From Chloroflexota bacterium (lineage in GTDB: Bacteria > Chloroflexota > UBA6077 > JACCZL01): DNA of 64,000 bases. A program made the translations under genes and the position numbers. The notes beneath the pieces are model-generated. The model ran no database searches, was not told the DNA's origin, and saw only the letters and a program-made list of their open reading frames with translations. Positions 12,617-48,011 of this stretch are shown piece after piece; within the stretch, counting starts at the first letter, position 1; each line of letters begins with the position of its first letter. The stretch covers positions 248,001 to 312,000 of the forward strand of contig JADLFM010000128.1 of the NCBI GenBank assembly GCA_020845495.1. Reading direction: 5' to 3'.

Positions 12617-12721
12617 GGCTGGTGCGTGCTGACTCCTGGAGTCACCCTCGGCGAGTGACGGCCGATGTCGCCGGGTTTCCAGTGGCGGTCCCGCGCGTCT
12701 CCCTGGCGGTCCGTATCGTAC

Positions 12722-20071: not shown

Positions 20072-21498
20072 CGGGCGGCCTCCACGTCGCGCGGGCCGCG
20101 GACGGTCGGCAGCAGCCCGCGCCGCGCGAAAAGGCGTTGGATACCATCGACCATGGTGGCCGCTCCGATCCCGATTAACAGCGCTCCGTAGAACGCGGTC
20201 GGGACGTAGTAGCGCGGCCAGTCCAGGCTCAGGTTTGCGGCGATCCCGAGCGCGTAGCAGCCGAGCCAGCACACGAACGCTACGTCCGCACCGCGGCCTG
20301 CACCCAGGTCACGGCTCCGTCCGACCCTCCAGAGCAACGCTCCCAGCCCGATGACGGCAAGCCCTAGCTCCAGGCTGATACCGCCAGGCGCGGGCATGTC
20401 AGAGAAGGTGCGTTGGATGAGCGGGTCGCTACCAGCCGGAAGGTTGGCATCGAAGGGCGGCGTGGAGCTCTCCACGAAGGTGCGGCGTACGAGCAACCAG
20501 ATTCGCCCTGGAAGATCCTCGTGAACGGGGTTGCCGAACTGGACGCCTTGCTCGACCATGATCTGCTGCTGCTGGTCGAGCATCGAGAGGGTCCGTCCGA
20601 CCGGATCCGGCCAGAGGAACGGGTTGACGGCGACCCACACGCCCGACGCGATCAGCCCCGTGACTGCCGCCCAGGCTAGCAGCCGCGTTCCCTCACGTCG
20701 GCTCGCTCTCAGCCGCGCCAATCCAGCCGCCGCGCCATACCCGCAGACGCCGACGATCGCGAGAGCAGCCGTGAGTTTGGTCGCGAGTGCCAGCCCCAGG
20801 ATGACGCCGACGAGCCAGCCGGCGACAGGGATCCGCCCATCTCGGCTGAAGCGGCGCGCGGTCAGGAGCAGCCCGAGCAGCGCGACCGTCGATACGAACG
20901 CTAACAGCGCCTCGGTGCGGGCCTGCGCGAAATACAGTTGTAGGAGCGGGCTGGACATGGCCGCTAACGCCGCCACCACCCCGACGAGCGGCCCGCCGAG
21001 CAGCCGGCCCACCACGTACAGCAGGCCGACGCTGAGCGCGCCGAGCACCGCCATCGCACGGCGCACCGGTAGGAGGATCCGCGGCTCCGGCACCCGGCCG
21101 TCGCGCAGGTTGGCCGCGTAATCCTTATCCCAGGCGTAGGTGCGATTCACCTTCTCGGGGTCCGTGCCAGAGGCCCAGACGATAGCCCCGATGACGTAGC
21201 GCCCGACAGGCGGCTGGTCGCGGTTCAGCCAGGAGGGTCGCCAGACCTGGCTGGTCAGGTCGTGGTCGAGGAAGACGTAGCGGAAGTAGCGGCCGTTGGC
21301 GATCCACTCACTCTCGTCGCCGTGGAAGGGCGCCCGGTCGACGGCACCGAGGAAGGTGACGAGCGCGGCGACGAGCAGCCCGACGAACGCCACGGCATCC
21401 AGGCTGCGCGACGGCGGTCGGAGCCAGCCGGCCCGGACAGGCGTGCCCTCGGCCGTTGCGTCTCGCGGCGTGGCGCGCTCCACGGTCGACGCGGCCAC
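20068..21498 (-). CDS. GT39/PMT-like membrane glycosyltransferase
   Basis: The 476-residue GT-C-type protein has an N-terminal cytoplasmic tail, a first helix at about 30-50 and the first-loop motif APFHGDESEWIANGRYF carrying the Asp-Glu pair expected of PMT-family enzymes. About ten more hydrophobic segments follow. The GTG start lies 3 bases after the stop of the preceding operon gene, and its 3' end overlaps the next gene by 4 bases. Protein O-mannosylation and lipid-linked glycan transfer are both possible. Confidence 0.8.
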   Translation of the reverse strand: MAASTVERATPRDATAEGTPVRAGWLRPPSRSLDAVAFVGLLVAALVTFLGAVDRAPFHGDESEWIANGRYFRYVFLDHDLTSQVWRPSWLNRDQPPVGRYVIGAIVWASGTDPEKVNRTYAWDKDYAANLRDGRVPEPRILLPVRRAMAVLGALSVGLLYVVGRLLGGPLVGVVAALAAMSSPLLQLYFAQARTEALLAFVSTVALLGLLLTARRFSRDGRIPVAGWLVGVILGLALATKLTAALAIVGVCGYGAAAGLARLRASRREGTRLLAWAAVTGLIASGVWVAVNPFLWPDPVGRTLSMLDQQQQIMVEQGVQFGNPVHEDLPGRIWLLVRRTFVESSTPPFDANLPAGSDPLIQRTFSDMPAPGGISLELGLAVIGLGALLWRVGRSRDLGAGRGADVAFVCWLGCYALGIAANLSLDWPRYYVPTAFYGALLIGIGAATMVDGIQRLFARRGLLPTVRGPRDVEAAR

Positions 21499-21501
21499 GG
21501 C

Positions 21502-23295
21502 TCAGCGCCGCTCCGGCGCCTGGAGGATGGAGGGCGTGTGGCCGACGATCTGGGGAGCGGCGGGTCGATTGGTGACAGTCTGGACGACGGGAGCCGGACC
21601 GCCGCTGACTCGGGCGATGCGCGACGGATCGAAGCGTACCAGCCGATAGCGCTCGGCCGGCTTCGGTGCCTTCGCCGGCTTCCCGTCTAACCCGACGAGG
21701 CGGTACCGGTCGATGAGATCCTGGAGCTTGTTGGTGTCGACGCTATCGAAGCCGGACGACAGGATGATGACGGCCGGACGCTGACGTGCGGCCAGTCGAT
21801 CCATCGCCGCCGCATCGACATTTGGCGTCTCGTAGGGCACGTTCTCGAATTCGAGGATGTACTTGAAGACTCGATAGGTGCTCGCCTCATCCCACGGCGA
21901 GGCGTGCTCGACCTTCCGGTCGTTCAAGTTGCCGTCCACGACCATCAGGTCGCCGGGCCGGAGGGCGGCCGTCGCCTCGGCCATGGCGCTGACCAGGCTT
22001 GCGTTCGTCGGCTCGGACTTCACGCCACGCGCGTAGAAGCGACCCAGCGAGAAGAGAGGGGCAGCGATCAATACCATCAGCAGCCCGCTAATGGCGACCT
22101 GCACGGCAAGCCGCGTTATCCGGCCTTGGAGGCGCCCGCGGACGAACCGTGCCGTGTCCACGGTGACGAGCCCCATTGTGGCGTACACGAGCGGCAGTAG
22201 CGGCATGATGTAGCGGCCGTCGTAGCCAATGTCGTAGTGGGTGGCGTTGGCCAGCGGCAGGATGAGCGAGAACGACCCAAGCAGCCACAGCGGCAGCGCG
22301 TAGCCCCGCCGCGCTGCCCAGATCAGTCCTGCGGCGGCGAGCGCCGAGGCCGCGACCAGCAACGGATCGGTCAGGTAACTCTCTGCGTTCGAGCGCTCGT
22401 CGACGGCGCCCCCGAGCGTCCCGTAGACCATCAACCAGTAGGCTTGCTGCCGCTCCAGATACGTCGCCGGCGTCAGTTCGGTGGACTGACCGCGTGCATA
22501 GTCGCCGCGCTCGGTGGCCGTCCAGGCGGCGTGGCGAATCGACTGTCCGCCGGTCATGACGTTGTAGGCGATCATCGGGCTGAAGGCGACGACGAAGAGC
22601 AGCGCCGCGACGTACGGCCAGCGCGTTCGCAGGCTGTCCCGCCAGTGCCAGAGCACCCAGCCCAGCGCGCCCGGTAGGAACGCAACGATGGTCGGATGGG
22701 TATGCAGGCCCATCCCGAGCGCGAAGCCGGCCCATGCCAACGCCCACCCGCTGCGCCGAACGACGGCCCGATGGAGCAGCCAGAACCCGAGCGTCGTAAA
22801 GAGCGGCGTGATGCTGCCGGAGAAGGCGACGTGTCCCATCGGCGCGATGTGGACGCCGTTCGTCACCATGAAGCCGGCCGCGATCAGGCCAACCATCCGT
22901 CCGCCGACCTCGCGGCCCAGGCAGTAGGCCGCGCCAACGGCGGCTACCCCGAACCAGGTGACGATGGTTCGGGCGGCGTAAATAGTTGGGCCGATGACAA
23001 ACATCCCGGCAGCGACCGCGTAGTTGAAGAACGCCCCAATGTACGGCTCGATGTCGGTAAACGGAAACTCCTGCCCTCGGTAGATCCGCAGCGCGATGAG
23101 CGTGTTGAACGTCTCGTCGCGGAAGCGGGGTACCGTCTCCAGGTAGGGGAAGCGCGTCACGCACGCGAGCGCCATCACGAGGAGCGTACCGAGCACGTCG
23201 GAGAGCAGGCCGGACAGACGGCGACGCTCGATTCGGGCGGAAGCGGCCGGCAGCGGAGGCAGCGTGGCGGGCGACGGCGTGTCGGTGGCCAGCAT
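21502..23295 (-). CDS. GT39-like membrane glycosyltransferase, first gene of the operon
   Basis: The 597-residue product has a first helix at about 30-48, the acidic loop VPRFRDETFNTLIALRIYRG with the Asp-Glu pair of GT39/GT83 enzymes, about ten further helices and a soluble C-terminal domain of about 170 residues. It opens the leftward run of seven glycosyltransferase-type genes. The ATG at 23295 has no good ribosome site, so the start is uncertain by a few codons. The 278 bases upstream are shared with the divergent gene at 23574. Confidence 0.8.
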   Translation of the reverse strand: MLATDTPSPATLPPLPAASARIERRRLSGLLSDVLGTLLVMALACVTRFPYLETVPRFRDETFNTLIALRIYRGQEFPFTDIEPYIGAFFNYAVAAGMFVIGPTIYAARTIVTWFGVAAVGAAYCLGREVGGRMVGLIAAGFMVTNGVHIAPMGHVAFSGSITPLFTTLGFWLLHRAVVRRSGWALAWAGFALGMGLHTHPTIVAFLPGALGWVLWHWRDSLRTRWPYVAALLFVVAFSPMIAYNVMTGGQSIRHAAWTATERGDYARGQSTELTPATYLERQQAYWLMVYGTLGGAVDERSNAESYLTDPLLVAASALAAAGLIWAARRGYALPLWLLGSFSLILPLANATHYDIGYDGRYIMPLLPLVYATMGLVTVDTARFVRGRLQGRITRLAVQVAISGLLMVLIAAPLFSLGRFYARGVKSEPTNASLVSAMAEATAALRPGDLMVVDGNLNDRKVEHASPWDEASTYRVFKYILEFENVPYETPNVDAAAMDRLAARQRPAVIILSSGFDSVDTNKLQDLIDRYRLVGLDGKPAKAPKPAERYRLVRFDPSRIARVSGGPAPVVQTVTNRPAAPQIVGHTPSILQAPERR

Positions 23296-23533
23296 CGGTG
23301 GGAAGGAGTCTCGGCGTCGGTCCGCGGCAGGGCGTCAGGATGACGGCACGGACGTGGACGGGTCGGCGGATGCTACCAGATTTCCGGCCGCGCATGCTCG
23401 CCCCATGACCTGCTCGCGCCGTTGCCTTAGCCCGGGACGACGCTCACCCCGGCCGCACTCTCGGGCGTGGCCACGCCCGAGACGAACGACCCTCGGTTGA
23501 TAGCGTCGAACGTCCCTCGGGCACCTTCGACCC

Positions 23534-23539
23534 TATAAT
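23534..23539 (+). promoter_or_regulatory. -10 box before the rightward GT39-like gene
   Basis: A perfect TATAAT lies 34 bases before the ATG at 23574. I see no matching -35 box. Confidence 0.4.
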
Positions 23540-23573
23540 CACGCTCGGGCCGGCTGGCCGGCCAGGTTCGACG

Positions 23574-25151
23574 ATGGCAGCTCGCACGACAACCACTTCG
23601 CGCTCGGCCGCTCCGGCGGAGGCGCGCCGGCCCTGGGCGGCCAGCGCCAACCTGCACGCCTGGTGGAGCCGCCATCCTGACCTGGGCCGGCTGTCGGTGG
23701 TGCTGGCGGTCGGGCTGGTGCTGAGGCTGGCGTTGCTCTATCGCATCCCGCCACTCTTCATGCCGGGCGATAGCCAGAGCTTTCTGACGCCGGCCTACGA
23801 TCTGGCCCGCGGCCTCGGCTTCGATCCGATCCTGAAACGTCCGCTCGGCTACCCGCTCTTCATTGCCGCAACCATCCTGGCGCTGAGCGAGGATCCACGC
23901 GCTCTGATCTTCGTCCAGGCGATGCTTGGCCTCGCGACCGTCGCCGTGACCTACTGGATCGGACGGCTCGCGTTTGGGCGCGCAGCCGGGCTGCTCGCCG
24001 CACTGCTGGTGGCGATCGGCGGGCAACTGTTGATCTACGAGCACTACATCCTGGCCGAGAGCGTTTTTGCGCTGTTGCTGGCGCTCGCCGTCCTCGGCAC
24101 GATGGCGGCGGTTGGGCACGGCGCGCGAGCGGCACTGCTCGGTGGGGTGGCGCTGGCCGGTGCAAGCCTGTTCCGCCCGATCGCCGAAGTGCTGATCCCA
24201 GTCCTTCCGGCCTTCTTCCTGCTCGTCGCGCGGCCGTCGCGCCGCGCGCTGACACTCTCCGCGTTCGCCGGGCTTGGCTTCCTCGGCCTGATGTTGCCGG
24301 CCGTAACCGTAGATGCGACCCTCCGAGGCGGCTTTAGCTCGGGCGCGGTAGGTGAACACTTGCTCTGGCGAATCACCCGCTCGGACGCCGAGTACATCTC
24401 GCGCGATGACGTCCCACGCGCTGAGCCGGACTCACCACACGCAGTGGCGAAGCGGCTCGTCATCCGGCGCGCCGCCGACCGCCGACTGCCCCAGGAGATC
24501 TACACCGAGCTCCATTCCGACCTCGGGCTCGGCGCGTCCGAGGCGGATGGCGTCATGCGTGAGGTCGCTCTGGAAGCGATTGGACGGCAGTGGCAACGCT
24601 ACGTCACGAGTACGCTCGCCATGTCAATCCAGCTTTTCCTCGGGGCTGACCAGCCGCTCGGCGAGGTTTCGAAGCGCGACGGCGAGGCCCGGTACGCCAA
24701 CCCCCAGACGCGCCAACGGTCCTGGTTCGAGGATCGAGTGCTGCATCTGGGCGAGCCGCCATCGCTGGCCGTCCAGAACGAGTTTGACGAAGCCGCCTGG
24801 CTGACCGGGCTGTTCCAGCCTGGGCAATTCGGCATCGTCTGGCCCGCGCTGATACTGCTTGGTGGGGGGCTGGCAGCGTTCGGCCGCCCGAGCCGGCTCG
24901 GTTTGCTGCTCGTCCTGGCGCTGCCGCCGCTCCTGCTCGCCAACGCGGCCTTTGCCGGCCCTGAGGCTCGCTTCCGTTACCCGCTTGACCCCCTGTTTGG
25001 AGTTCTGGCGAGCGGCGCCGCTATGACGGTGCTCGTACTCGCCGTCGACGCGGTCAGGAAACGCGGCGCCGGCGCCGAGGTCCGAGCGCACCGGTCGCCG
25101 GCAGCCGGCCCGGCTGCCGAGCCGGCCGCCAACCTCGCGGGGGATCGGTAG
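23574..25151 (+). CDS. GT39/ArnT-like membrane glycosyltransferase
   Basis: The 525-residue polytopic protein has a first helix at about 40-58, then an acidic loop FMPGDSQSFLTPAYDLARG in the place of the catalytic Asp loop of dolichyl/polyprenyl-phosphate-mannose glycosyltransferases; here a Ser follows the Asp instead of the usual Glu. About ten more helices and a hydrophilic Ala/Glu/Pro-rich tail follow. It is divergent from the seven-gene operon, so the two may share regulation through the 278-bp spacer. The substrate is unknown. Confidence 0.78.
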   Translation: MAARTTTTSRSAAPAEARRPWAASANLHAWWSRHPDLGRLSVVLAVGLVLRLALLYRIPPLFMPGDSQSFLTPAYDLARGLGFDPILKRPLGYPLFIAATILALSEDPRALIFVQAMLGLATVAVTYWIGRLAFGRAAGLLAALLVAIGGQLLIYEHYILAESVFALLLALAVLGTMAAVGHGARAALLGGVALAGASLFRPIAEVLIPVLPAFFLLVARPSRRALTLSAFAGLGFLGLMLPAVTVDATLRGGFSSGAVGEHLLWRITRSDAEYISRDDVPRAEPDSPHAVAKRLVIRRAADRRLPQEIYTELHSDLGLGASEADGVMREVALEAIGRQWQRYVTSTLAMSIQLFLGADQPLGEVSKRDGEARYANPQTRQRSWFEDRVLHLGEPPSLAVQNEFDEAAWLTGLFQPGQFGIVWPALILLGGGLAAFGRPSRLGLLLVLALPPLLLANAAFAGPEARFRYPLDPLFGVLASGAAMTVLVLAVDAVRKRGAGAEVRAHRSPAAGPAAEPAANLAGDR

Positions 25152-33543: not shown

Positions 33544-34896
33544 ATGAGCCCGCCGACTCGAACTCACCCCCGAACCACGTGCCGAGCCATCAACAGGGAC
33601 ACGGTCAGTGGCGCGCAGCCGGGCCAGGCGGTGCAGAGTGTGAGCCGGCGGCGCCTGCTCGTCGCGCTGATCGGCGGGTGTGGGCTGACGGCCTGTCGGC
33701 TCGACGTGCCGCCGCCGACGCCGCGTGCGACGCCGACGCCGGCCCCAGCAGGCGATGCGCTTGTGGTTGGTGCGACACTGAGCCTGAGCGGCCGCTACTC
33801 GCGCGAGGGCGCCATCCTCCAGGCCGGCTACGAGACCTGGGCCGACGCCGCTAACGAGCGTGGCGGCGTGTCCCTGGGGGCAGCGATCAGGCCGATCCGG
33901 CTGCTCGTCTATGACGACCAGAGCGAACCGCTCGTCGCTGCCCGCCAGATCGAGCGTCTCGTACGCGAGGACGACGTGCGGCTCTTGCTTGGGCCGTTCA
34001 CAGGGCAGATCACGACCACCGCCGCGCTCGCCGCCGAGCGGCTGGGCGTCCTGATGGTCGCGTCGGATGCGAGCCAGCCGGAGTTGTATGCCCGCGGGCT
34101 CACTCGCCTGGTTTCGATCCTTCCGACCGACGACCGGCTGTTCGTCGGGCTGGCCGAACTTGCTGCACGGGTGACGCCACGCGCCTGGCCGATTGCCGTG
34201 CTTATTCCCGAGGAGCCTGCCTACGTCGCCGCTGTGGGCGGGCTGCGTCGGCGCGCCGCTGAGGTCGGAATCGACATGATGGAAGCGGCCTCGTATGCGG
34301 CCAATGCCGTCGACGTGAGCGAGCCGTTCGAGCGGCTGGCGCGCGCCCGGCCGCGCCTGCTCGTCCTCGTCGGAGATGCTGAGCGACAGGCCCAGTTGAT
34401 CCGGCGGGCGCGCGCGCTCTCGCTCAGCCCGCCGATGCGCACGATCGTTCCGCTCCCAGTTTCTGACGACCGACGCGGGCTGCCGCCTTCCCTGTACGAC
34501 GGCGCCCTCACCGTCGACTGGTGGTCGCCGCGCCTGACCGGCGTCGGCCCAGTGCTTGGGTCAGCCCGCGACTTCGCCGCGCGGTTCCAGGCCCGCCACG
34601 GGTACCCACCGGATACGCGCGCGGCGGCCGGTGCAGCCGCTGGTCTGGCGCTCCAACTGGCGATCGAGCGGGCTGAGTCGCTCGTTCCGAGCGCGGTCAG
34701 GGCCGCGTTCGGGAACCTGAACGTCACGACGTTCTGGGGACGCCTGGCCTGGGACGAGGCCGGCCGCAACATCGGGACGCTGCCGCCGGTCGTGCAGCAG
34801 CAAGGGGAATTGCCCGTGGTGGTCTACCCGGTCGGTGCAGAGACCGGGTCAGTGCAATACCCGCTCGGCGCGTGGACGGGGACGGGTCAGGGGTAG
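33544..34896 (+). CDS. Branched-chain amino-acid-type ABC substrate-binding lipoprotein
   Basis: The 450-residue protein is a periplasmic-binding fold type I receptor like LivJ. Its signal has a twin-arginine-like SRRRLLVALIGGCGLTAC with a lipobox Cys, then a Pro/Thr-rich linker. The mature domain starts with the family's VVGATLSLSGRYSREG, followed by LVYDDQSEPLVAARQIERL and LLLGPFTGQITTTAA, which line the ligand cleft. No cognate permease or ATPase genes are adjacent, so the ligand and transport role are open; it could act as a sensor. The ATG has no ribosome site, and a TAGCAT box lies only 9 bases before it, so the message may be leaderless. Confidence 0.85.
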   Translation: MSPPTRTHPRTTCRAINRDTVSGAQPGQAVQSVSRRRLLVALIGGCGLTACRLDVPPPTPRATPTPAPAGDALVVGATLSLSGRYSREGAILQAGYETWADAANERGGVSLGAAIRPIRLLVYDDQSEPLVAARQIERLVREDDVRLLLGPFTGQITTTAALAAERLGVLMVASDASQPELYARGLTRLVSILPTDDRLFVGLAELAARVTPRAWPIAVLIPEEPAYVAAVGGLRRRAAEVGIDMMEAASYAANAVDVSEPFERLARARPRLLVLVGDAERQAQLIRRARALSLSPPMRTIVPLPVSDDRRGLPPSLYDGALTVDWWSPRLTGVGPVLGSARDFAARFQARHGYPPDTRAAAGAAAGLALQLAIERAESLVPSAVRAAFGNLNVTTFWGRLAWDEAGRNIGTLPPVVQQQGELPVVVYPVGAETGSVQYPLGAWTGTGQG

Positions 34897-34901
34897 CCCG
34901 C

Positions 34902-35627
34902 TCAGAGCCGCCCCGCGTCGCGCAGGCTACGTTCGAGCTTGAGACCGCGCCGATACTTGCCCATGGTGGAGGGTTCGAGGCGATCGGGATAGCGTTTCAC
35001 CAGCGCCTCGCCCAGGCGGCGTGCCAGCGAGCCGTCGCCGGCGCCGATTTGCTCGATCTCGATCTCGTGGTAGTCCACCTGCATGTGGCCGAAGTCGTAA
35101 CGGGTGCGGTCCAGTGCGAGCTCGGCGACCGGGACGCCGGCCCGGAGAGCGTTGCGGACCGTACGCTCGGTCCGTCGATCCTGGGTCACCACCAGGCCGG
35201 CCGCGGCCAGCCAGGCCATCGGGTCCGACGTGGTGACGCCGGCTCTGCCCGCACTGGTTCGCTGCCCGTCATCGCGCAGCGCGACGCCACGCTCGGCGAA
35301 CTCCCGCCGGATCGTTGCCCAGGACTCACGGGTCGCCGGTAGCTCGAGCTCGTCGCGCAGGAACAAGCCATCGTGCGAGCTCGTGCCACCCTTGACCGTG
35401 AACAGCACCCGGTCGTCGATGTGGCGCAGGCGGAGGGAGAGGCCATGCTCGTGTACGGAGCCGTTTGAGAGATCCCAGTAGACGTCGTGGAGGTGGTGCC
35501 GACGCGGAGTATCGAGCGCAAGGCCAGCCAGCGAACGCAGCGACGCCACGTCTTCAAGAATGGCGTCCAGATCGCCGCCGGTGACGCTGAGCTTGAACTC
35601 GATCTCCTGATGATCCTGGAGTCGCAT
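34902..35627 (-). CDS. CYTH-domain triphosphate-tunnel protein
   Basis: The 241-residue product is a CYTH-family protein. It starts with the signature ExExK as EIEFK (E8, E10, K12). The alternating charged strands expected of a triphosphate tunnel follow: LSLRLRHIDDRVLFTVKGG, LFLRDELEL, ELALDRTRYDF and DYHEIEIEQI. CYTH proteins bind triphosphorylated compounds and act as inorganic or thiamine triphosphatases or as class IV adenylate cyclases; the sequence does not say which. The ATG at 35627 has GAGG 5 bases upstream; an in-frame GTG at 35660 would add 11 residues. It is the last gene of a cluster that also encodes two nucleotide-kinase-like proteins and a DUF4956 membrane protein. It ends 5 bases from the convergent binding-protein gene. 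Confidence 0.9.
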   Translation of the reverse strand: MRLQDHQEIEFKLSVTGGDLDAILEDVASLRSLAGLALDTPRRHHLHDVYWDLSNGSVHEHGLSLRLRHIDDRVLFTVKGGTSSHDGLFLRDELELPATRESWATIRREFAERGVALRDDGQRTSAGRAGVTTSDPMAWLAAAGLVVTQDRRTERTVRNALRAGVPVAELALDRTRYDFGHMQVDYHEIEIEQIGAGDGSLARRLGEALVKRYPDRLEPSTMGKYRRGLKLERSLRDAGRL

Positions 35628-35795
35628 GGCCCCCTCGAGGCGCGTACGAGGCTCCGCCACCGGTCCGGGACGCCCGGGTCTGGAGCCTCACAGGCAAAGG
35701 TTCGTGTACGGTGCTCGTTCGTGTGCGTGAGTGGCGCATCTGCGCCGGCGCTTCGGCGGGCGCACAGGCCACCGGGCTCCCCGGGCGTCGCAGGC

Positions 35796-35993
35796 TTACC
35801 TGGCCGCGTGGCGCTGAAGCTCAGCCCGAATCGTCGACACGGCTTCGTTGGCCTGGGCGCGTAGGCGCTCCCAGATGCGGCTGCAATCCTCACAGCCCTT
35901 CGCATCCTTGAGATACCGGTCGTAGCTCTCGATGTCTTCGAGCTGGTCGTGGAGAGCGGCGATCAGGTCGTACTCGGCTTCGCGGCTCGGCAT
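35796..35993 (-). CDS. Small helical CxxC protein, 65 residues
   Basis: The product is short, strongly charged and predicted to be helical, with a central GCEDCSRIW CxxC that could bind a metal or form a disulfide. The ATG has an excellent ribosome site (AGGAGG about 7 bases upstream). Its first 31 bases overlap the end of the kinase-HD gene in another frame. I do not recognise the family. Its tight position between the kinase-HD gene and the CYTH gene suggests it belongs to the same system. Confidence 0.72.
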   Translation of the reverse strand: MPSREAEYDLIAALHDQLEDIESYDRYLKDAKGCEDCSRIWERLRAQANEAVSTIRAELQRHAAR

Positions 35994-37291
35994 GCGCCCT
36001 CCTCCTGTGAGATTGCCGCCGAACCGGGCAACGGCGCAAGTTTTGCGGTCGCCGGCGGCGGCCCCTGCCGCTCTGCGACGACGTCGACAGTCACGTCGTA
36101 CACCCGCTCCACGAGGTGGGCACGATCGCGGGCCGCTTTCACCTCGGTGCGGGCTTTCGTCCGGCTCTGCATCCGAACCAACAGATGCCGGTCCTCGTCC
36201 AGCACGGCCTCGACCCAGCGGACCGTTTGCTCGTGACTCAGGTCCATGGCATCGGCCAGGCGGGCGAGCGGCGCAAGCTTCTCGACGGCGTCGCGGTACT
36301 CGACAGGCACGGTGGAGAGCCAGGCCTCGAGCTCACGGTGATGCTGAATGGTATGGGCGGCCGCGATGACGCTCACCGCATTGAGCTCGTCGGCGCTGAA
36401 GCCGGGAAGCTCGCTGTTGCGGATCGTGGCGGCGGTCCGGATGTGACGGTCGCGCTCCTCGCCGTCCGATTCTCCGACGTTGTGAAGCAGCACCCCAAAC
36501 TCCAGCAGCTCCGCCTCGCGGGCGCCAAGGCTATGCAGGGGCTTGAGCTGGTCAAAAAGCTGGAGAGCGAGCGTCGCGACCTGCTGAGCGTGCGGTGGGT
36601 CGTGATACTGCTTGTAGAGCATCTCGAGCACACTGTGGTGCCGGACGTTGAAGTCGGACGCCTCCAGCCCGAGGAGCCGCTCGATGCGCCCGATCATCTC
36701 GCTCATAGTGGCCGGCGTCACCATCTCGATCTGGTGCGCTTCCGCCCACTCCTCATACGCGTCCAGCGTTCGCTCTTGATAGAGCTGGTAGCTGAATGGC
36801 ACGTCGCGGGTCAACCCCAGGTCCATCCCCGCCTCGTACAGGTCGAGCGTGGTCAGGTCGAGCTTCCGTGACAGGATGGACGGATCGCCGGCGAAGTGGA
36901 ACACCAGGTCTGGACGCGGGGCGGGGGCGCATAGCGTCTCCAGCCACTCGGTGTCGAGGTCACGCGCCATGCCCTGGATGATGCGGTAGATATAGCGGTC
37001 GGCGAGAACGACCTTGCCGGCGTTGAGGGCCGGCAGGATTTCCCACTCCAGCCGCTCGGCCATGTCGCTCGCCGCCACAAGCACGAGGGTGCGGGGAGAC
37101 AACTCGTTCAGGGGGGCGGCGCTCCGGTAGATGCCGCCGGCGAGCGTCGCACCCAGCGGACGGCTGACGACGACGTCCTTGCCACGGGCCTGGAGCGCGC
37201 CGCGCGCCTGCGCGAGCGCCTCGCGTCGCCCGGCGCCCTCGGGGCCTTCGAACGCGATCAAGTAGCCTGGATACGTGCGCTCGTCAGCCAC
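35963..37291 (-). CDS. Degenerate thymidylate-kinase-like domain fused to a Ppx/GppA-type HD domain
   Basis: The N-terminal half (about 1-210) of this 442-residue protein follows the thymidylate-kinase fold: FEGPEGAGRREAL at 14-26, then VVLADRYIYRIIQGMARDLD. The P-loop reads GPEGAGRR, so the invariant Lys and Thr/Ser are both Arg. The C-terminal half (about 215-400) matches the HD domain at the end of Ppx/GppA exopolyphosphatases, including HAQQVATLALQLFDQL and LLEFGVLLHNVGE. The HD dyad is His270-Asn271 rather than His-Asp. Catalysis by either half is therefore doubtful, and a ligand-sensing or scaffold role is plausible. The GTG start has GGAGG 6 bases upstream and overlaps the intact kinase gene by 8 bases. 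Confidence 0.82.
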   Translation of the reverse strand: MADERTYPGYLIAFEGPEGAGRREALAQARGALQARGKDVVVSRPLGATLAGGIYRSAAPLNELSPRTLVLVAASDMAERLEWEILPALNAGKVVLADRYIYRIIQGMARDLDTEWLETLCAPAPRPDLVFHFAGDPSILSRKLDLTTLDLYEAGMDLGLTRDVPFSYQLYQERTLDAYEEWAEAHQIEMVTPATMSEMIGRIERLLGLEASDFNVRHHSVLEMLYKQYHDPPHAQQVATLALQLFDQLKPLHSLGAREAELLEFGVLLHNVGESDGEERDRHIRTAATIRNSELPGFSADELNAVSVIAAAHTIQHHRELEAWLSTVPVEYRDAVEKLAPLARLADAMDLSHEQTVRWVEAVLDEDRHLLVRMQSRTKARTEVKAARDRAHLVERVYDVTVDVVAERQGPPPATAKLAPLPGSAAISQEEGACRAAKPSTT

Positions 37292-38072
37292 GCACCACCT
37301 CCCGCCGCCGGCGCCGCTCGTAGCGGCTCTCCTCGCGCTCTTCGAGCACCTTCAGATGGCGCTCGAGGATCGGGCGGGCGAGCTCGCGGACCTCTTCGCG
37401 CTGTGGGTCGATCGACCGATTTGCGTCGATCACGGTCAGGCCGTATTCGTCGATCATCTGGTCGTACTCGGTGACGACTCGGCTTTGAAAGAGCCGATAG
37501 CTCTCCTGAGGGTCCATGCTCAGCCCGAGGTCGAGGCCGGCCTCATAGTATTTGAGCCCCTCGCGGCCCGGACCGGTGAGCACCCGATTCATTGCCACGT
37601 CGAGCGGGACGTGGAAGTAGAGCGCCAGGTCCGGCTGCACCGCGAAGCTGTACAGCCGTCGCACGGATGCGCGGTCGGCGTTCCGCGCAACGTCCCGAGC
37701 GAAGGCTGTGAAGACGTACCGGTCGGCCAGGACGAGCTTCCCTTCGCGGAGGGCCGGTAGGACGATGTTCTCGTAGCGATGGGTAAAGTCGGTGACGTGG
37801 AGAAGCACGAAGCTCAGATGGCCGAGCCAGAGCCGGCGCTTGCCGCGCCGGACGGCCTTCTGAGTCAGGCTGGAACTGTTCCACTCGGTGAACAGCACGT
37901 CGGCGCCCTGCTCCACGAGCCACTCGCGCAGCAGTTGCAGCTGGGTACTCTTGCCGCTCCCGTCCACGCCCTCGACGACAACCAGGCTGCCGGGGTATTC
38001 GAGGCGCTGAAGCGGAATGCGGCCGGTGCCGTGCGCCGCGAGACCGTCGGCCTGACCGTTGACCGTCATCAT
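37284..38072 (-). CDS. Thymidylate-kinase-like P-loop kinase
   Basis: The 262-residue product has an intact P-loop VEGVDGSGKSTQ (34-44), the DRYxxxxFARD segment LADRYVFTAFARDVAR and a lid-like region near 180-190, as in dTMP kinases. It is longer than housekeeping Tmk (about 210 residues), with an N-terminal extension of about 25 residues and an Arg-rich C-terminus. Clustering with a DUF4956 protein, a second kinase-like protein and a CYTH protein suggests a specialised role, possibly on another phosphorylated substrate. The ATG at 38072 overlaps the upstream stop by 4 bases and has GGAGG 7 bases before it; an upstream extension of the frame is rejected. Confidence 0.85.
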   Translation of the reverse strand: MMTVNGQADGLAAHGTGRIPLQRLEYPGSLVVVEGVDGSGKSTQLQLLREWLVEQGADVLFTEWNSSSLTQKAVRRGKRRLWLGHLSFVLLHVTDFTHRYENIVLPALREGKLVLADRYVFTAFARDVARNADRASVRRLYSFAVQPDLALYFHVPLDVAMNRVLTGPGREGLKYYEAGLDLGLSMDPQESYRLFQSRVVTEYDQMIDEYGLTVIDANRSIDPQREEVRELARPILERHLKVLEEREESRYERRRRREVVRG

Positions 38073-39004
38073 GCCTCTTCCTCCCAGTGCACGGATTGCA
38101 CGCCGTGTTCGAGCACGAGCAGCGTGAGATCCTCGGTGGTCACGTGCGCATTGGCTTCGACGGCAAGCGCGATCTTCACCGTGTTGTCCTTCTTGCCCGC
38201 TCGTGCATCGTATTCGAGCAAGCGATAACGGATATCGTTTGTGGCGAAGCACGCTTTGAGGCGGGCCAGTGCGTCGATACCGTCGTCGGCGGTCACAGTG
38301 AGCGTGTAGCCGCGTTGGGGGTTGTAGAGCGTCGCCGGGAGCAGAGACGACAGCGACCCCATCATCCCCTGAAGCGCGACGATCAGGACGCCCGCGACGA
38401 AGGCAAGCTCAAACAGACCGATCCCGATGGCGATGCCGATGCCCATCGTCACGAACAACGATGCCAGCGCCTTTGGATCGCGGACTGGCGTACGATAGCG
38501 AATGATGCTGCCGGCGCCGAGCAGCCCCACCGCCCGCACGATCTCGTTGCCGATGATGATCATCATCAGTGCACCGGTGAAGGCGATGATGACGTGCGCG
38601 TGAACGATGTACTCTTCGACGTGGAGCCGCTGGCGGTACCCGATCAATCCACCCAACAGGGCCGCCAGCATGAGCTTGCCGAGCACGACCGGTAGCGAGT
38701 GGTTACTCGGCGCAAGGAGCCCCTGAACGCTGCCGAAGATGCGGGTGAACTCGTCGTCGGGTACGGCAGCACCCTCGGGGACCGGGCGGCTCCCTGGGAG
38801 CGCGACCAGTCCGACCATCAAGATCGCGGAAAGCACGATGCCCGCGACGATCAACCAGACGCCGTAGTCGCGTTCGCTTGCGGGCGGCGGTAGGTGCCGG
38901 AGAGCGGCCGTCGAACCGTTCGCGCTTGCTGGCGACGGGTCCGGAGCATCCACTGTGGCTGGGCTCTCGCCCACCCGAGCCCCCGCGCTGTCCTGCTTCG
39001 GCAT
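38069..39004 (-). CDS. DUF4956-type (MgtC-like) membrane protein
   Basis: The 311-residue protein has a disordered N-terminus of about 45 residues, a first helix (about 48-70), four further helices (about 105-220) and a soluble C-terminal ACT-like domain of about 85 residues. The segment GLLGAGSIIRYRTPVRDPKALASLF between helices is diagnostic of DUF4956 proteins, which are related to MgtC/SapB. As I recall, DUF4956 genes often sit next to genes for VTC-type polyphosphate polymerase domains, which are relatives of CYTH; that fits the CYTH gene of this cluster. It is the first gene of the leftward cluster, with a possible promoter at 39090. Confidence 0.8.
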   Translation of the reverse strand: MPKQDSAGARVGESPATVDAPDPSPASANGSTAALRHLPPPASERDYGVWLIVAGIVLSAILMVGLVALPGSRPVPEGAAVPDDEFTRIFGSVQGLLAPSNHSLPVVLGKLMLAALLGGLIGYRQRLHVEEYIVHAHVIIAFTGALMMIIIGNEIVRAVGLLGAGSIIRYRTPVRDPKALASLFVTMGIGIAIGIGLFELAFVAGVLIVALQGMMGSLSSLLPATLYNPQRGYTLTVTADDGIDALARLKACFATNDIRYRLLEYDARAGKKDNTVKIALAVEANAHVTTEDLTLLVLEHGVQSVHWEEEA

Positions 39005-39368: not shown

Positions 39369-40973
39369 CTAGAAGCCGCGCTCTACGAAGAGCGGCGCAA
39401 CCAGGTTATCGGCCGGCGCGTAGTCGTCGGTGAGCACCGGCGCGGGTGTCTGGGCCAGCCACTCGTCGAATTTGTCCTTCGGCATCACCGAGGTGATCGT
39501 AGCGCCGTTCAACCCCTGGCCGCGCTTCTCGTTGGCGACGATCTTCAGCCGCTCGAAGTCGATCGGCGTGGCGCTGGCCGCGACGACGTAGGTGTTCGGC
39601 GCTTCGCTGTTCCAGTTCGGCGCGTCGTTCAGGATGTACACGTACGGGAACACTTCCTGGACTGTCCGTACATAGGCCGGGATGAAGCGTCCGCCCACGA
39701 GCTTGTCGATGACGAGGGCCAGGTACATCCCGTCGTCCTTCATCATCGCTCGTACCTTCTGGGTGAACTCCTTCGTGGTCAGGTGGTACGGGATCTGAAG
39801 GTCATTGAAGGCGTCGCCGAAGACGAGGTCGAACTTCTCCTGCCCCTGGAACTGCTCGACGATCTGCCGAGCGTCGGCGTTGTAGGTCACAATCCTGGTA
39901 TTCGGGTCGACGCCGAGCATCTCGAAGTTCGTCTGGGTGACGCCTGGATCGATCTCCGACACCACGATATGAACGTCTGGGCGGAGCGTCTCCATCTGGC
40001 GAGGCAGGGTGTAACCGCCGCCACCGATGAAGAAGGCGCTGTAGTTGGGGACGCGCTGAGCGAGCGTCTCGATCATCTCGGCGTACACCTTGATGTAGCC
40101 GTACTTCAGGTAGGTCGGGTCCGCGAGCGAGTTGTAACTGTGGATCAGGTGGTCGAGGACCAGTTCGCGGGTCAGCCGCTGCGGCGATGGATCCTCATCG
40201 ATCACCTTGATGCAAAAGTAGTTGGTCTCCTTGTAGCAGCCGCTGTTCAGGGCGTCTGGCCGCTCGGCCGAGAACGTACTGTGGGGGTTGATCCAGAAGA
40301 TCAGAAGCGCCAGGACGGTAGCCGTCGCAGCAGCGACCGGGGCGTCGCTCTTCTTGGTGCGCCGGAAGAACTCGCCGAAGACGGCCGCCATGAGGATCAA
40401 GATGATCGCGACACCCAGGACGATGTTCCGGGTTCCGAACGTCGACACGAGGTAGAAGCCGGTCAGGAACGTGCCGAAGATGCTGCCGGCAGTCGAGTAG
40501 GCGTAGATTTTGCCGGCGATGCTGCCGGTGTGGCGCAGGTCGGTCACCGCGAGCTTGATGACGATCGGCGAGACCATACCGAGGACCAGCGTCGGCGGCA
40601 GGAACAGGAGCGACGTCAGCGAGACGATTCGGATCATCAACCAGGCGTCGCGGCCAATCGCGGCTGGCCCGAGTCGCGGCAGCAGAGTCGTCAGATCCCA
40701 GGCCGCGAGCGGCAGGATCAGCAGGCTGAATAACCCGCCGCCAAGCAGGATCAGGCCGAGCGAGCGCCGCGAGCCATAACGGTCGGCGAGCGCGCCGCCG
40801 AGATAGTTCCCAATCGAGATACCGGCCAGACAGACGCCGATAATGCTCGTCCAGGTGTACAGCGAGACGCCGATGAACGGCGCCAGAATCCGGCCGGCTA
40901 CCAACTCGAGGACGAGCGTACAGCAGCTCGCCATGAACACGATCAGATACGACACCCAGAGCCCACCTGCCAC
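39369..40973 (-). CDS. Membrane-fused spermidine-synthase-like protein
   Basis: The N-terminal half (about 1-230) of this 534-residue protein has seven or eight hydrophobic segments resembling a transporter-like membrane domain, with TSIIGVCLAGISIGNYLGGA and YAYSTAGSIFGTFLTGFYLV. The C-terminal half is a Rossmann methyltransferase-type domain of the spermidine synthase family: FFIGGGGYTLPRQME, IVVSEIDPGVTQ, and DLVFGDAFND with its catalytic-region Asp. Such fusions are common in bacteria, but polyamine synthesis has rarely been shown for them. The GTG at 40973 is supported by GAGAGG 8 bases upstream; an in-frame GTG at 41039 would add 22 residues. Confidence 0.85.
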   Translation of the reverse strand: MAGGLWVSYLIVFMASCCTLVLELVAGRILAPFIGVSLYTWTSIIGVCLAGISIGNYLGGALADRYGSRRSLGLILLGGGLFSLLILPLAAWDLTTLLPRLGPAAIGRDAWLMIRIVSLTSLLFLPPTLVLGMVSPIVIKLAVTDLRHTGSIAGKIYAYSTAGSIFGTFLTGFYLVSTFGTRNIVLGVAIILILMAAVFGEFFRRTKKSDAPVAAATATVLALLIFWINPHSTFSAERPDALNSGCYKETNYFCIKVIDEDPSPQRLTRELVLDHLIHSYNSLADPTYLKYGYIKVYAEMIETLAQRVPNYSAFFIGGGGYTLPRQMETLRPDVHIVVSEIDPGVTQTNFEMLGVDPNTRIVTYNADARQIVEQFQGQEKFDLVFGDAFNDLQIPYHLTTKEFTQKVRAMMKDDGMYLALVIDKLVGGRFIPAYVRTVQEVFPYVYILNDAPNWNSEAPNTYVVAASATPIDFERLKIVANEKRGQGLNGATITSVMPKDKFDEWLAQTPAPVLTDDYAPADNLVAPLFVERGF

Positions 40974-41200
40974 GTCCGTTGCCTCTCTTCCTTGGGCCCG
41001 GGGATCGAGATGCTCGGCGGGACCGGGCCGGGTTCGCACAGGGGCGCTATTGTATCATCTCGAAGAGGCGCCGATCGCAGATCAGCGTTCGGTCGAACCA
41101 TCAGCGTGCGAAGCCTACGGCAGCCACCCGACGGTGGCCTGCCAGAAGTCTGGGCGGCGCGGAGAGGCAGGACGTGCGGCAAGGGATGCCTGGAGGCGCG

Positions 41201-44752: not shown

Positions 44753-46021
44753 ATGACGTGCCCGCAGTGCGGCACTCGCAATCCGGACGACTTCATGTTC
44801 TGCCTCCAATGTGGAGCGCAGTTAGGCGGTGGGTCAGCCGCGCAGCCGTCGCCCGATTTGCTTGCGGCGACGCGCGCCAACCTGGACCCCGTCGACGGCA
44901 ACCACGACGCGCCAGAGGCCGAAGCGCGGCTGCGCGTCGAGCAGGGCTCGGTCGACCAGCGGGAAATCCTGATCGACCGGCCGGTCATGATCATCGGGCG
45001 GCGTCTCGGCAGCGATATCGTTATTCACGACACTAACGTTTCGCGCCAGCACGCCCGGATTGCGAAGACCGGCTCGGTCATCACGATCGAGGACACCAAG
45101 AGCTCGAACGGAACGCTCGTCAACGAGGAGCGTCTCGAAGACCCGCGCGAGCTACGCCACGGCGACGTGGTCCGGATTGGAGACGCCGTGTTCGTCTTCG
45201 AGCAGGCCCAGCCAGAGCCGATGACCGCCGAGGAATCGTCGTTCGAAGGTGCGACGCTCGCCATCGATCTCGATTCACCGATGACGAGCCTGGGAGCGCC
45301 TCCCGAGCTGTCGCCGCCGGCTGCGTTGAGCGCCCAGGCATCTGGGGCGACCATGCAGCCATCCGGTCCGTTGACACCGCCGCCCCCTATCATGGACCCC
45401 GGCCAGACCGCCATCGCGGACAACGTCCTGGACAACAGGCCGGACGAAGCGCCGTCGCCAGACATGCCACTCGGGTCTAGGGTTGGTCCTCATGATGATG
45501 CGGAGTCACCCGGAACGATTGCCTGGGAGCCATCCTCGCACGAGTCTGTCGCCAGGGAGCCGGCTGTCAGCGAGCCGGCGGTTCGATCGGCCGCCGCCAA
45601 CGGTGGTAGTACCCCGTCTATCGACGCTCTGCGGCGAGAGATCGGGCAACTCGGTCAGGATCTCGTGAGCTTCGCCAACAGCCTCGGCGGCCTCGCCGAC
45701 CGCGTGGAGCGGATCGAGCAGGGGTTGGATCAGGCGACGGCCGGCCTCGTCGACATGCAGCAGCGGGTTCGCGGGCCAGACGGCGCCTCGCTCCGGGAAC
45801 TCCGCGAGTTGGCCGCCGAAGTCGAGACGTCCGGGCTGACCTCCCAGATCGATGCGGCGACCCGCGTTCTCGAACAACTCGTGCAGCAGCCTCGTGACAT
45901 CGAGCTACTTCTCAAGCTCTCGCAACAGGCGACGGCTATCGAGGCTGCGCTCCGGGTGCACGGGCGGCTCGTCGCGCTGGCGCCGCGGTTGCGCGGCGTG
46001 CTCGGAAGCTTGCTGGACTGA
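44753..46021 (+). CDS. Zinc-ribbon FHA-domain protein
   Basis: The 422-residue protein starts with a zinc ribbon (Cys 3, 6, 17, 20) and has an FHA domain at about 60-150, with all signature residues: the GR of MIIGRRLGSD (82-83), SRQH (97-100) and SSNGT with Asn 119. FHA domains bind phosphothreonine peptides. A Pro/Ser-rich linker follows, and the C-terminal 150 residues are helical and rich in charged heptad-like segments (LGGLADRVERIEQGLDQATA), suggesting a coiled coil. GGAGG lies 9 bases before the ATG. Its stop is 10 bases before the cNMP-patatin gene, so they probably form an operon. A Ser/Thr kinase is not in the window. Confidence 0.88.
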   Translation: MTCPQCGTRNPDDFMFCLQCGAQLGGGSAAQPSPDLLAATRANLDPVDGNHDAPEAEARLRVEQGSVDQREILIDRPVMIIGRRLGSDIVIHDTNVSRQHARIAKTGSVITIEDTKSSNGTLVNEERLEDPRELRHGDVVRIGDAVFVFEQAQPEPMTAEESSFEGATLAIDLDSPMTSLGAPPELSPPAALSAQASGATMQPSGPLTPPPPIMDPGQTAIADNVLDNRPDEAPSPDMPLGSRVGPHDDAESPGTIAWEPSSHESVAREPAVSEPAVRSAAANGGSTPSIDALRREIGQLGQDLVSFANSLGGLADRVERIEQGLDQATAGLVDMQQRVRGPDGASLRELRELAAEVETSGLTSQIDAATRVLEQLVQQPRDIELLLKLSQQATAIEAALRVHGRLVALAPRLRGVLGSLLD

Positions 46022-46031
46022 CGCGGACGCC

Positions 46032-48011
46032 GTGGAAGGCGGGCCGATCGGCGACACCCCGGCGCGGGGCGGCTTCTTCGCCAGCCCGCTGTTTCGTGGC
46101 GTGCCGGCGGATCGCCTGCCGGATCTGGCCGCGAGCTTCGAGGCCCGCACACTCGCTTCGGACGCGATCGTCGTCCGCGAGGGCGAGCCGGGCGATGCCC
46201 TGTTCGTGGTCGAGACAGGTCTCGTCGAGGTGTTTCTTGCCCGCCCCGGTGGCGAGGAGGTCGTCCTCTCGCGGCTCGGGCCGGGCGAGGCGTTCGGCGA
46301 GATGTCGGTGCTCACCGGCGAGCCGCGTTCGGCGGCCGTCCGAACGGTCCGCCCGACGACCGTTCGGGTGGTGACGCGGGAGCAGTTTCTTCGCCTCGCG
46401 GCGGATCTGCCGCTCTTGCTCTTCAATCTGAGTCGGACGCTGGTCGGACGACTATCGCAGGCGAGCCGCGCAGCAGCCAGGGTGCAGGGGTGCGAGGTCG
46501 TCGCGATCGTTGGACGAGTGCCGCCGCTCGTCGGTAGCCTGATCGCCACCAACCTGGCGGCTGCCCTCTCCTGGACGACCCGCGAGCGCGTGCTGCTGGT
46601 AGATCGGCCACCCGGGCAGGCGTCGTGGTTACCCGGGCGCGAGCAAGCGCCGGCCCTTGCCGACGTCTGGTCGGCTGGGGCCGAGGGACTGAGCGTCCGA
46701 GCCTTTCAGTTCGGGGGCGCTCGCCTGCGCATCGTGTCGTTACCCGAGGATGGCGGCTTCCTGGCGGCGACGCGGCCGGTCAGTCTGCCCGAGGCGTTCG
46801 CGTGGTTGCGGCACAATGCCCGCTTCGTCGTGCTGAATCTCGCCGGCGAGGACCGTGGCGACCTGGAGACCTTGTTGTCTCAGGTGGACCGGACCTATCT
46901 GCTGGTTACAGCGCGCCAACTCGAGACGCCATTTGCCGGCGAAATTGTCGCGGCGTTTCACGCGGCGCGACCAGAGGTGCAGCAGCGCTCGTATCCGATC
47001 GTCATCTCAGGCGAGGGACTGTCGCTGTCGGAACTCCGGCGGCGCACGATGCGGCGGCTCGGGATGCCGGCCCGGTCGATCGTGCCTGGACTGGCCCAGA
47101 TCCTCAAGGATGCTGCCCGCAATCAGGCACCGCTGGCGATCGAAGCGCGGCACCTCTCGTTCAGCCGGGCGATGCACTGGCTTGCCCGCGATGTGGCTGG
47201 CCTCAAGGTCGGCGTGGCGCTTGGCGCTGGCGGCGCTCGTGGCTTCGCGCACGTCGGGGTGTTCTCGTTCCTGGAAGAGCACGACATCCCGAACGACTTT
47301 CTGGCCGGGACGAGCATGGGCTCGGTGATCGCTGCGCCGAAAGCGCTCGGCATGGACGTGGCGCAGGGCCGTGAGACGATGCTCCGCCTGCACGAGAAGT
47401 TCACCAGTCTGATCCGCCCGACCTTCTCGCTGATGGCTTCGCTGCTCTCGCCGAAGGGCGTGGAAGATACGTACCGCGAACTGGTTGGCGACGCGAACCT
47501 GGAGGAGTTGCCGGTGCCGTTCGCGGTCGTCGCCGCGGACCTGGAGACGGCCCGCCCAATCGTCCTGACCGAAGGCTCGCTCGCGGACGCGATGCGGGCC
47601 AGCAGCGCCATCCCGCTCGTCTGGCCGCCGAAGGTCATCGGGAAGTACCGACTGGTCGACGGCGCTGTGCTGAACCCGGTCCCGACTCAGCCGGTGCGCG
47701 ATCTGGGCGCCGACATCGTGATTGCCGTCGACCTGTCGGCTCGTTCGGAGCCCGGCGCAGACGGGGCCCGCGGCGAGCGGCACCCGAATATCTTCCAGAA
47801 CGTCTTTCGCTGCATCGATATCATGACCGCCGATCGCGCGGTTCGAGACTGCCTGCTCGCGGACGTGGTGATCCGGCCGCGCTTCGAGTTGACCGGCTGG
47901 AAGCACTTCGATCAGGCCGACGCCTACGCTGCGGCCGGCTATCAGGCCGCTGAGGAGATGTTGCCGGCGCTCCGAAAGGTGCTACCCTGGCTCGATCGCG
48001 CGGGAGCCTGA
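46032..48011 (+). CDS. Cyclic-nucleotide-binding, patatin-like phospholipase
   Basis: The 659-residue protein has three parts. Residues 15-140 are a cNMP-binding domain with the phosphate-binding cassette GEAFGEMSVLTGEPRSAAV, keeping Glu 90 and Arg 99. Residues 155-330 resemble a MinD/CpsD-like P-loop domain (VVAIVGRVPPLVGSLIATN), but its GK[ST] is missing. Residues 390-655 are a patatin/RssA-type hydrolase with GAGGAR (398-403), the nucleophile Ser 428 in GTSMG and Asp 543 in DGAVLNPVP. The whole resembles neuropathy-target-esterase-type phospholipases gated by cyclic nucleotides. The GTG start lies 10 bases after the FHA gene's stop; the ribosome site is weak, so the start is approximate. 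Confidence 0.85.
   Translation: MEGGPIGDTPARGGFFASPLFRGVPADRLPDLAASFEARTLASDAIVVREGEPGDALFVVETGLVEVFLARPGGEEVVLSRLGPGEAFGEMSVLTGEPRSAAVRTVRPTTVRVVTREQFLRLAADLPLLLFNLSRTLVGRLSQASRAAARVQGCEVVAIVGRVPPLVGSLIATNLAAALSWTTRERVLLVDRPPGQASWLPGREQAPALADVWSAGAEGLSVRAFQFGGARLRIVSLPEDGGFLAATRPVSLPEAFAWLRHNARFVVLNLAGEDRGDLETLLSQVDRTYLLVTARQLETPFAGEIVAAFHAARPEVQQRSYPIVISGEGLSLSELRRRTMRRLGMPARSIVPGLAQILKDAARNQAPLAIEARHLSFSRAMHWLARDVAGLKVGVALGAGGARGFAHVGVFSFLEEHDIPNDFLAGTSMGSVIAAPKALGMDVAQGRETMLRLHEKFTSLIRPTFSLMASLLSPKGVEDTYRELVGDANLEELPVPFAVVAADLETARPIVLTEGSLADAMRASSAIPLVWPPKVIGKYRLVDGAVLNPVPTQPVRDLGADIVIAVDLSARSEPGADGARGERHPNIFQNVFRCIDIMTADRAVRDCLLADVVIRPRFELTGWKHFDQADAYAAAGYQAAEEMLPALRKVLPWLDRAGA

Follow-up and report, generated by a model that had tools for sequence, protein, structure and literature searches.

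A 64,000-nucleotide stretch of DNA from a Chloroflexota bacterium (contig JADLFM010000128.1; hereafter the window) holds an array of five minus-strand genes, two of which encode thymidylate-kinase-like proteins that we call subunit A and subunit B. All five open reading frames (ORFs) are open and lie head to tail, with overlaps of 4, 8 and 31 bp followed by a gap of 168 bp, the layout given by an earlier description made from the letters alone (the sequence-only reading). The array begins with a 311-residue MgtC/SapB-like membrane protein (38069..39004), related to DUF4956 and carrying a C-terminal ACT-like domain, as judged from Pfam and a structure model. Subunit A (37284..38072) has an intact P-loop, GVDGSGKST, and is changed at the presumed thymine-contact positions (Pfam and family columns). 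Subunit B (35963..37291) no longer has a P-loop, and joined to it in one protein is the C-terminal half of Ppx/GppA, from domain III onward (Pfam, alignment and model); an alignment of 20 fused proteins places the former P-loop, GPEGAGRRE, at 37220..37246. A 65-residue CxxC protein (35796..35993), recognized through a homologue in the genome G046, and a 241-residue CYTH-domain protein (34902..35627), in which ExExK and the other presumed tunnel residues are intact (Pfam, alignment), complete the array. The Ppx-type HD and CYTH domains named in the sequence-only reading are both there: Ppx-GppA_III scores 43.9 bits against a curated Pfam cut-off of 27.3 in the fused gene, and CYTH scores 39 bits against 23.2 (on a 252-aa ORF from an upstream GTG).

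Judged by their sequences, A and B form an ancient, widespread two-gene family. The Pfam family Thymidylate_kin matches A with 71.6 bits (on a 322-aa ORF from an upstream GTG) and B with 51.9 bits, both above the curated cut-off. Against TIGR00041, the dTMP kinase model, A reaches 86.8 bits, just above the cut-off of 83.25, and B falls under it at 50.3 bits. A one-genome-per-species scan with the fused family gave 414 confirmed stretches, the best of which supplied our main set of 79 loci; every one of the 79 has an A-type match. Six genomes of the class of L001, the nearest named locus to the window (genome G001), bring the set to 85 loci. The record titles place the pair in Chloroflexota, Thermoplasmata, Melainabacteria/Cyanobacteria, Nitrospirae, Acidobacteria, Armatimonadetes, Verrucomicrobia and others. 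One record titled Actinobacteria (L005) has an A and a B that group with Obscuribacterales/Melainabacteria rows, and its title may be wrong. In five genomes (G056, G057, G061, G065 and G077) A and B lie on separate contigs.

The two subunits can be told apart at a single residue. The window was added to the 85 loci for the residue columns, which were counted without the duplicate copies L081 and L105-L109. The P-loop lysine is kept in all 83 readable A rows (three truncated rows aside), and arginine stands at the same position in all 77 readable B rows (one masked). Canonical thymidylate kinases (TMKs; n=18) have lysine there in 16 cases and threonine in two. The same holds in 36 further Chloroflexota genomes, with lysine in 35 of 35 readable A and arginine in 35 of 35 readable B sequences. 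The signature reads GK[ST]T in A and GR[ST]T in most B. A also departs from canonical TMKs at three other positions: the canonical residues R (18/18), Q (18/18) and F (15/18) are replaced in A by F (85/86), R (86/86) and H (79/86), and nearly all B sequences are changed there too. We take these positions to be the thymine contacts of TMK structures. The DR(Y) motif is preserved in both subunits. A and B are probably not dTMP kinases, on the strength of these columns.

In the tree, A forms one side of a branch (support 99/88), and B as a single clade is not rejected (approximately unbiased test, p 0.586); the 33 Thermoplasmata loci, including L041, whose record title says bacterium only, were thinned to 8 for this tree. 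The fused B rows, which are long branches, were set apart in the free tree. A 539-aa B-type frame at L154 (G105 C1:129036-138468) has no match to the HD part of the window protein, and may have an extra domain or a long false start. The sequence-only reading spoke of two kinase-like proteins. This is borne out by the Thymidylate_kin matches, but it understates the case, since the second protein is without the P-loop lysine and both belong to a widespread two-gene family. It also allowed that the kinase might simply be the only dTMP kinase of its genome. For most pair-bearing genomes this does not apply: 53 of 62 have at least three TMK-family matches, some of which are second pairs, and among the matches listed at least 22 genomes include a weak further match.

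Subunit B of the window is unusual even within its own family. The fusion physically joins B to the Ppx C-terminal half, whose domain III is seen in three settings: within a complete Ppx, in a protein by itself, and attached to B. None of the 20 aligned fused proteins has a GK[ST] P-loop motif. In the window's branch of the fused family the HD metal motif has given way to HN (QN in one sequence), while other branches retain HD. In a model of the fused protein (predicted local distance difference test score, pLDDT, 82.6), Foldseek matches the N-terminal half to Sulfolobus tokodaii ST1543 and the C-terminal half to GppA/Ppx. Where a source gives the full-length fused protein a name, this is usually dTMP or thymidylate kinase, and databases hide it in this way. 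The fusion is rare: all 47 pair loci of an evenly drawn sample of 251 Chloroflexota genomes were tested, and it is present in two, G046 and G001.

What surrounds the pair elsewhere points to polyphosphate. At 55 of the 85 loci (53 without the two fused B) a Ppx/GppA-type protein is found no more than 5 kb from the pair, and the HD matches fall at these same 55. The 55 comprise 48 loci with full Ppx, six with short domain-III proteins (one of which, at L006, is cut by the contig end) and the two with fused B, L002 having two kinds. Full Ppx is upstream of A on the same strand in 43 of 48 cases. Within the same distance we found CHAD at 44 loci, SixA at 36, PhoU at 10 and PPK2 at three. Each of these five was found at 0 of 20 control loci, which are canonical TMK loci from pair genomes, four of them (L113, L117, L125 and L127) with less than 5 kb on one or both sides. 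PstB was not distinctive (12/85 pair loci vs 2/20 controls). Taken together, 62 of the 85 loci have at least one of Ppx/HD, CHAD, SixA, PhoU or PPK2 within 5 kb: 33 of 33 in Thermoplasmata and 29 of 52 elsewhere. Pfam confirmed ten representative neighbour proteins. An independent whole-genome scan of 62 genomes placed Ppx within 5 kb in 26 of the 51 that have Ppx, and CHAD in 23 of the 47 that have CHAD.

The pair and PPK1 avoid each other. The pair is present in 47 of the 251 Chloroflexota genomes, PPK1 in 118 and both in 11, so that PPK1 occurs in 11 of 47 pair genomes against 107 of 204 others (Fisher p 3e-4). CHAD is found in 23 of 36 pair-only genomes, 98 of 107 PPK1-only genomes, 11 of 11 with both and 6 of 97 with neither (pair-only vs neither, p 1e-11). 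The corresponding figures for PPK2 are 24/36, 78/107, 7/11 and 6/97 (p 2e-12); for each of the two families the tallies include one genome below cut-off, and in the neither class one CHAD match (G028) and one PPK2 match (G227) have E near 1e-4. Because CHAD and PPK2 are common in pair-only genomes and rare in those with neither, the pair appears to take the place of PPK1. CHAD keeps similar company with both. Of 107 genomes that have CHAD and PPK1, 36 have the two within 5 kb of each other, and for CHAD and the pair the figure is 20 of 33; these distances are among the matches listed and cover 134 of the 138 CHAD genomes, all 138 of which entered the class counts. In the set of 62 pair genomes, PPK1 is present in 3 of the 35 with Ppx or CHAD beside the pair vs 12 of 27 otherwise (p 0.002). 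These distributions fit a pair that would supply polyphosphate where PPK1 is absent. In one genome, G186, a divergent tandem pair lies about 5.6 kb from PPK1 with CHAD in between (C100:21910-29340); in no other of the 47 pair genomes do the pair and PPK1 lie 10 kb or less apart.

We consider it moderately probable that the product of the operon is the Chloroflexota form of a polyphosphate kinase that descends from TMKs and has two subunits, one of them here a Ppx-fused, P-loop-less partner. TMKs are dimers, and A and B would form a heterodimer. In this enzyme, A would extend a polyphosphate chain with the gamma-phosphate taken from a nucleoside triphosphate, or catalyse the reverse, and B would hold or guide the chain through its Ppx domain III. 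Short chains, tripolyphosphate for example, would be trimmed by the CYTH protein, and the MgtC-like protein would couple activity to the phosphate or ATP status of the membrane. The sequence-only reading had already guessed at polyphosphate. The guess is supported, but mainly on grounds other than those it gave, namely the company of the pair (Ppx, CHAD, SixA and PhoU) and the co-occurrence with PPK2 and CHAD where PPK1 is absent.

Three other explanations deserve a hearing. The pair might consume polyphosphate rather than make it. It would then be a polyphosphate-dependent nucleotide kinase like PPK2, and A would use polyphosphate as the donor for phosphorylating a nucleoside mono- or diphosphate. 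The TMK fold is a nucleotide kinase fold, DR(Y) is kept in both subunits, and such an enzyme would be expected to keep the same gene company. However, pair-only genomes would then be left with no known polyphosphate maker unless PPK2 took that part, and yet 23 of 36 keep CHAD; moreover, PPK1 and PPK2 are both missing from 23 of the 62 pair genomes. We regard this explanation as unlikely. Less probable again is a regulatory or signalling pair, in which A and B act as sensors of nucleotide or phosphate status that govern Ppx, SixA or the Pst/PhoR system and no polyphosphate is synthesized. A conserved lysine-less partner would suit such a role, as would PhoU within 5 kb of 10 of 85 pair loci vs 0 of 20 controls and the MgtC-like and HD domains of the window, but A retains its P-loop residues, and regulation by itself leaves the avoidance of PPK1 and the retention of CHAD and PPK2 unexplained. 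Finally, it is very improbable that A is an ordinary duplicated dTMP kinase within an unrelated metabolic operon. In favour are its TIGR00041 score just above the cut-off and the dTMP kinase title of ST1543 in the PDB; against are the replaced contact residues, the three or more TMK-family matches in most pair genomes and the non-random gene company.

Several observations weigh against a pair that makes polyphosphate. None of Ppx/HD, CHAD, SixA, PhoU or PPK2 lies within 5 kb in 23 of the 85 loci, mostly of Obscuribacterales/Melainabacteria and Ktedonobacteria; the flanks of some are short. Thermoplasmata show this company most strongly, and elsewhere the figures drop to 22/52 for Ppx-type proteins, 16/52 for CHAD and 8/52 for SixA. 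In the phylum sample, besides the two fused genes, only 10 of 47 pair loci had a Ppx/HD-type match, in a search whose query, the window fused protein, misses some Ppx. CHAD is absent from 13 of 36 pair-only Chloroflexota genomes, and 15 of the 62 pair genomes carry PPK1 as well. The Fisher tests above ignore kinship, and genome completeness figures are not part of the counts. Closest to home, G046 and G001 have no PPK1, no PPK2 and no Ppx catalytic domain, and their CHAD matches are weak or none, so that in the window's lineage the link to polyphosphate rests on the HD domain and the CYTH protein. The fused Ppx half, together with CYTH in G046 and the window, may handle polyphosphate besides the pair in this lineage.

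How far does the array travel as a unit? The tandem pair is present in 7 of 29 genomes of the class of G001 (G001, G032, G033, G041, G042, G043 and G046). G046 has all five genes in identical order, with 75% identity for the fused B and 86% for A. G001 has the MgtC-like gene, A and fused B, with no CxxC or CYTH match, and the other 45 Chloroflexota pair genomes show no MgtC-like, CxxC or CYTH match within about 4 kb on each side of the pair. Metagenomic contigs add to this picture. Among those of at least 4 kb that carry the kinase-HD gene (33 distinct sizes), 14 are equal in size to a contig bearing the MgtC-like gene and 12 to one bearing CYTH; about 0.2 such coincidences would be expected, a figure computed at 2.5 kb or more, and equal size is a proxy for a shared contig, not proof of one. 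The coincidences suggest that many metagenomic contigs carry the MgtC-like and CYTH genes together with the fused gene. Several more distant relatives share a contig size with an MgtC-like match and with no CYTH match, so CYTH may be a later addition to the array. The proposal of one dedicated five-gene system survives in part. Co-occurrence goes beyond chance for G046 and for the MgtC-like, kinase-HD and CYTH coincidences, but CxxC is found in G046 only, and the exact set is narrow, with fused B in 2 of 47 Chloroflexota pair genomes and CxxC plus CYTH beside one of them.

The three remaining proteins differ in how much they reveal. The membrane protein had been labelled DUF4956. It falls short of that family (24 bits, cut-off 30.6) and exceeds the cut-off for MgtC instead (49.7 bits, cut-off 31.4), although 98 of the 101 listed proteins are precomputed as both. 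It has 100 homologues besides itself, and those with a named organism are Chloroflexota. Its model has moderate confidence (pLDDT 70.9), and its C-terminus weakly resembles the C-terminal domains of MgtC (2lqj and 7qa5, best E 1.7e-3). In the part of PMC7112168 that deals with Pel loci, DUF4956 adjoins a poly-phosphate polymerase and CotH. We set a DUF4956-VTC link aside for the window protein, because it is nearer to MgtC. Neither Pfam nor NCBIfam yielded a match for the CxxC protein at E 0.1, and the gene is supported in only one relative, G046, by a homologue at the equivalent place (E 5e-26). In the CYTH protein, 15 residues are invariant across 12 aligned sequences (E8, E10, K12, R66, R68, K79, E93, E95, R151, R155, E188, E190, E192, K224 and R227). 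We assume these to be the residues of the triphosphate tunnel, and their invariance therefore makes triphosphatase activity likely. With the VTC domain of Pfam also considered, this protein scored above cut-off for CYTH only.

The flanks of the array hold genes of other kinds. A periplasmic binding protein (Peripla_BP_6, 33544-34896, plus strand) is convergent with the CYTH gene, and by eye a similar-looking gene stands at the equivalent place in G046 (L080 3832-4287). A fused MFS/spermidine synthase (39369-41039, minus strand; NF037959, 415.8 bits) directly precedes the array in the same orientation. Further away, the window encodes a single protein with a cyclic-nucleotide-binding domain and a patatin-like phospholipase (45852-48011, plus strand), adjoined by an FHA/zinc-ribbon protein, and a 788-aa protein combining PP2C phosphatase, GAF, PAS and adenylate/guanylate cyclase domains (56422-58788, minus strand). 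A series of long hydrophobic membrane proteins, by eye perhaps glycosyltransferase-like, occupies 11150-25151, mainly on the minus strand. Rfam and tRNA scans across the window gave no matches, and in scans for promoters and terminators no signal stood out.

We tentatively advance a larger claim, to which we give somewhat less than even weight. A and B may be a second major prokaryotic polyphosphate synthase, one of TMK descent, built as a heterodimer of a catalytic and a lysine-less subunit in many bacteria and archaea that lack PPK1; in the window's lineage, the lysine-less subunit would have absorbed the chain-handling half of Ppx to give a polymerase with a built-in polyphosphate guide. 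The archaeal literature bears on this claim. In its treatment of Sulfolobales CHAD loci, PMC10892726 describes genes for SixA, PPX and dTMP kinase, and the same 2024 account calls the crenarchaeal polyphosphate synthase unidentified; the portion of PMC7831078 on Sulfolobales reports no PPK homologue found there. For a distinct PPK-type enzyme in Sulfolobus, PMC13318637 cites Hofmann et al. 2026 (J Biol Chem 302:111283). Because Sulfolobales CHAD loci hold PPX, SixA and dTMP kinase, the family of Hofmann et al. may be the same as the A-type proteins. If so, the lysine-less partner, the bacterial spread and the fusion may still be additions. If the families differ, the pair itself would be a new kind. 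The pair is a candidate with a clear sequence signature for polyphosphate synthesis in genomes without PPK1, and the fused form points to a likely partner, Ppx domain III, and offers a single testable protein.

How does the array compare with systems already described? The CYTH protein resembles CYTH/TTM triphosphatases of the YgiF type in its family match and conserved presumed tunnel residues, and a source names several of its homologues inorganic triphosphatase YgiF, but it has no attached CHAD domain. Subunit B shares with Ppx/GppA exopolyphosphatases the C-terminal half from domain III onward, whereas the catalytic domains I/II (PF02541) are absent from the window gene and from the genomes G046 and G001. 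None of the five window proteins matches PF02503 (PPK1) or PF03976 (PPK2). PPK1 nevertheless resembles the pair in often having CHAD within 5 kb, and the two avoid each other in Chloroflexota. PPK2 is a P-loop kinase that acts on polyphosphate and is structurally near TMK. The solved structure most like A by sequence is ST1543 of S. tokodaii (2plr, 4nzy, 4rzx and 5h70; 161 bits for 2plr). It is archaeal and has a single domain, but the A-type EWNS, H..F and EAG.D motifs are present in its alignment, and it is also the closest fold to the N-terminal domain of B.

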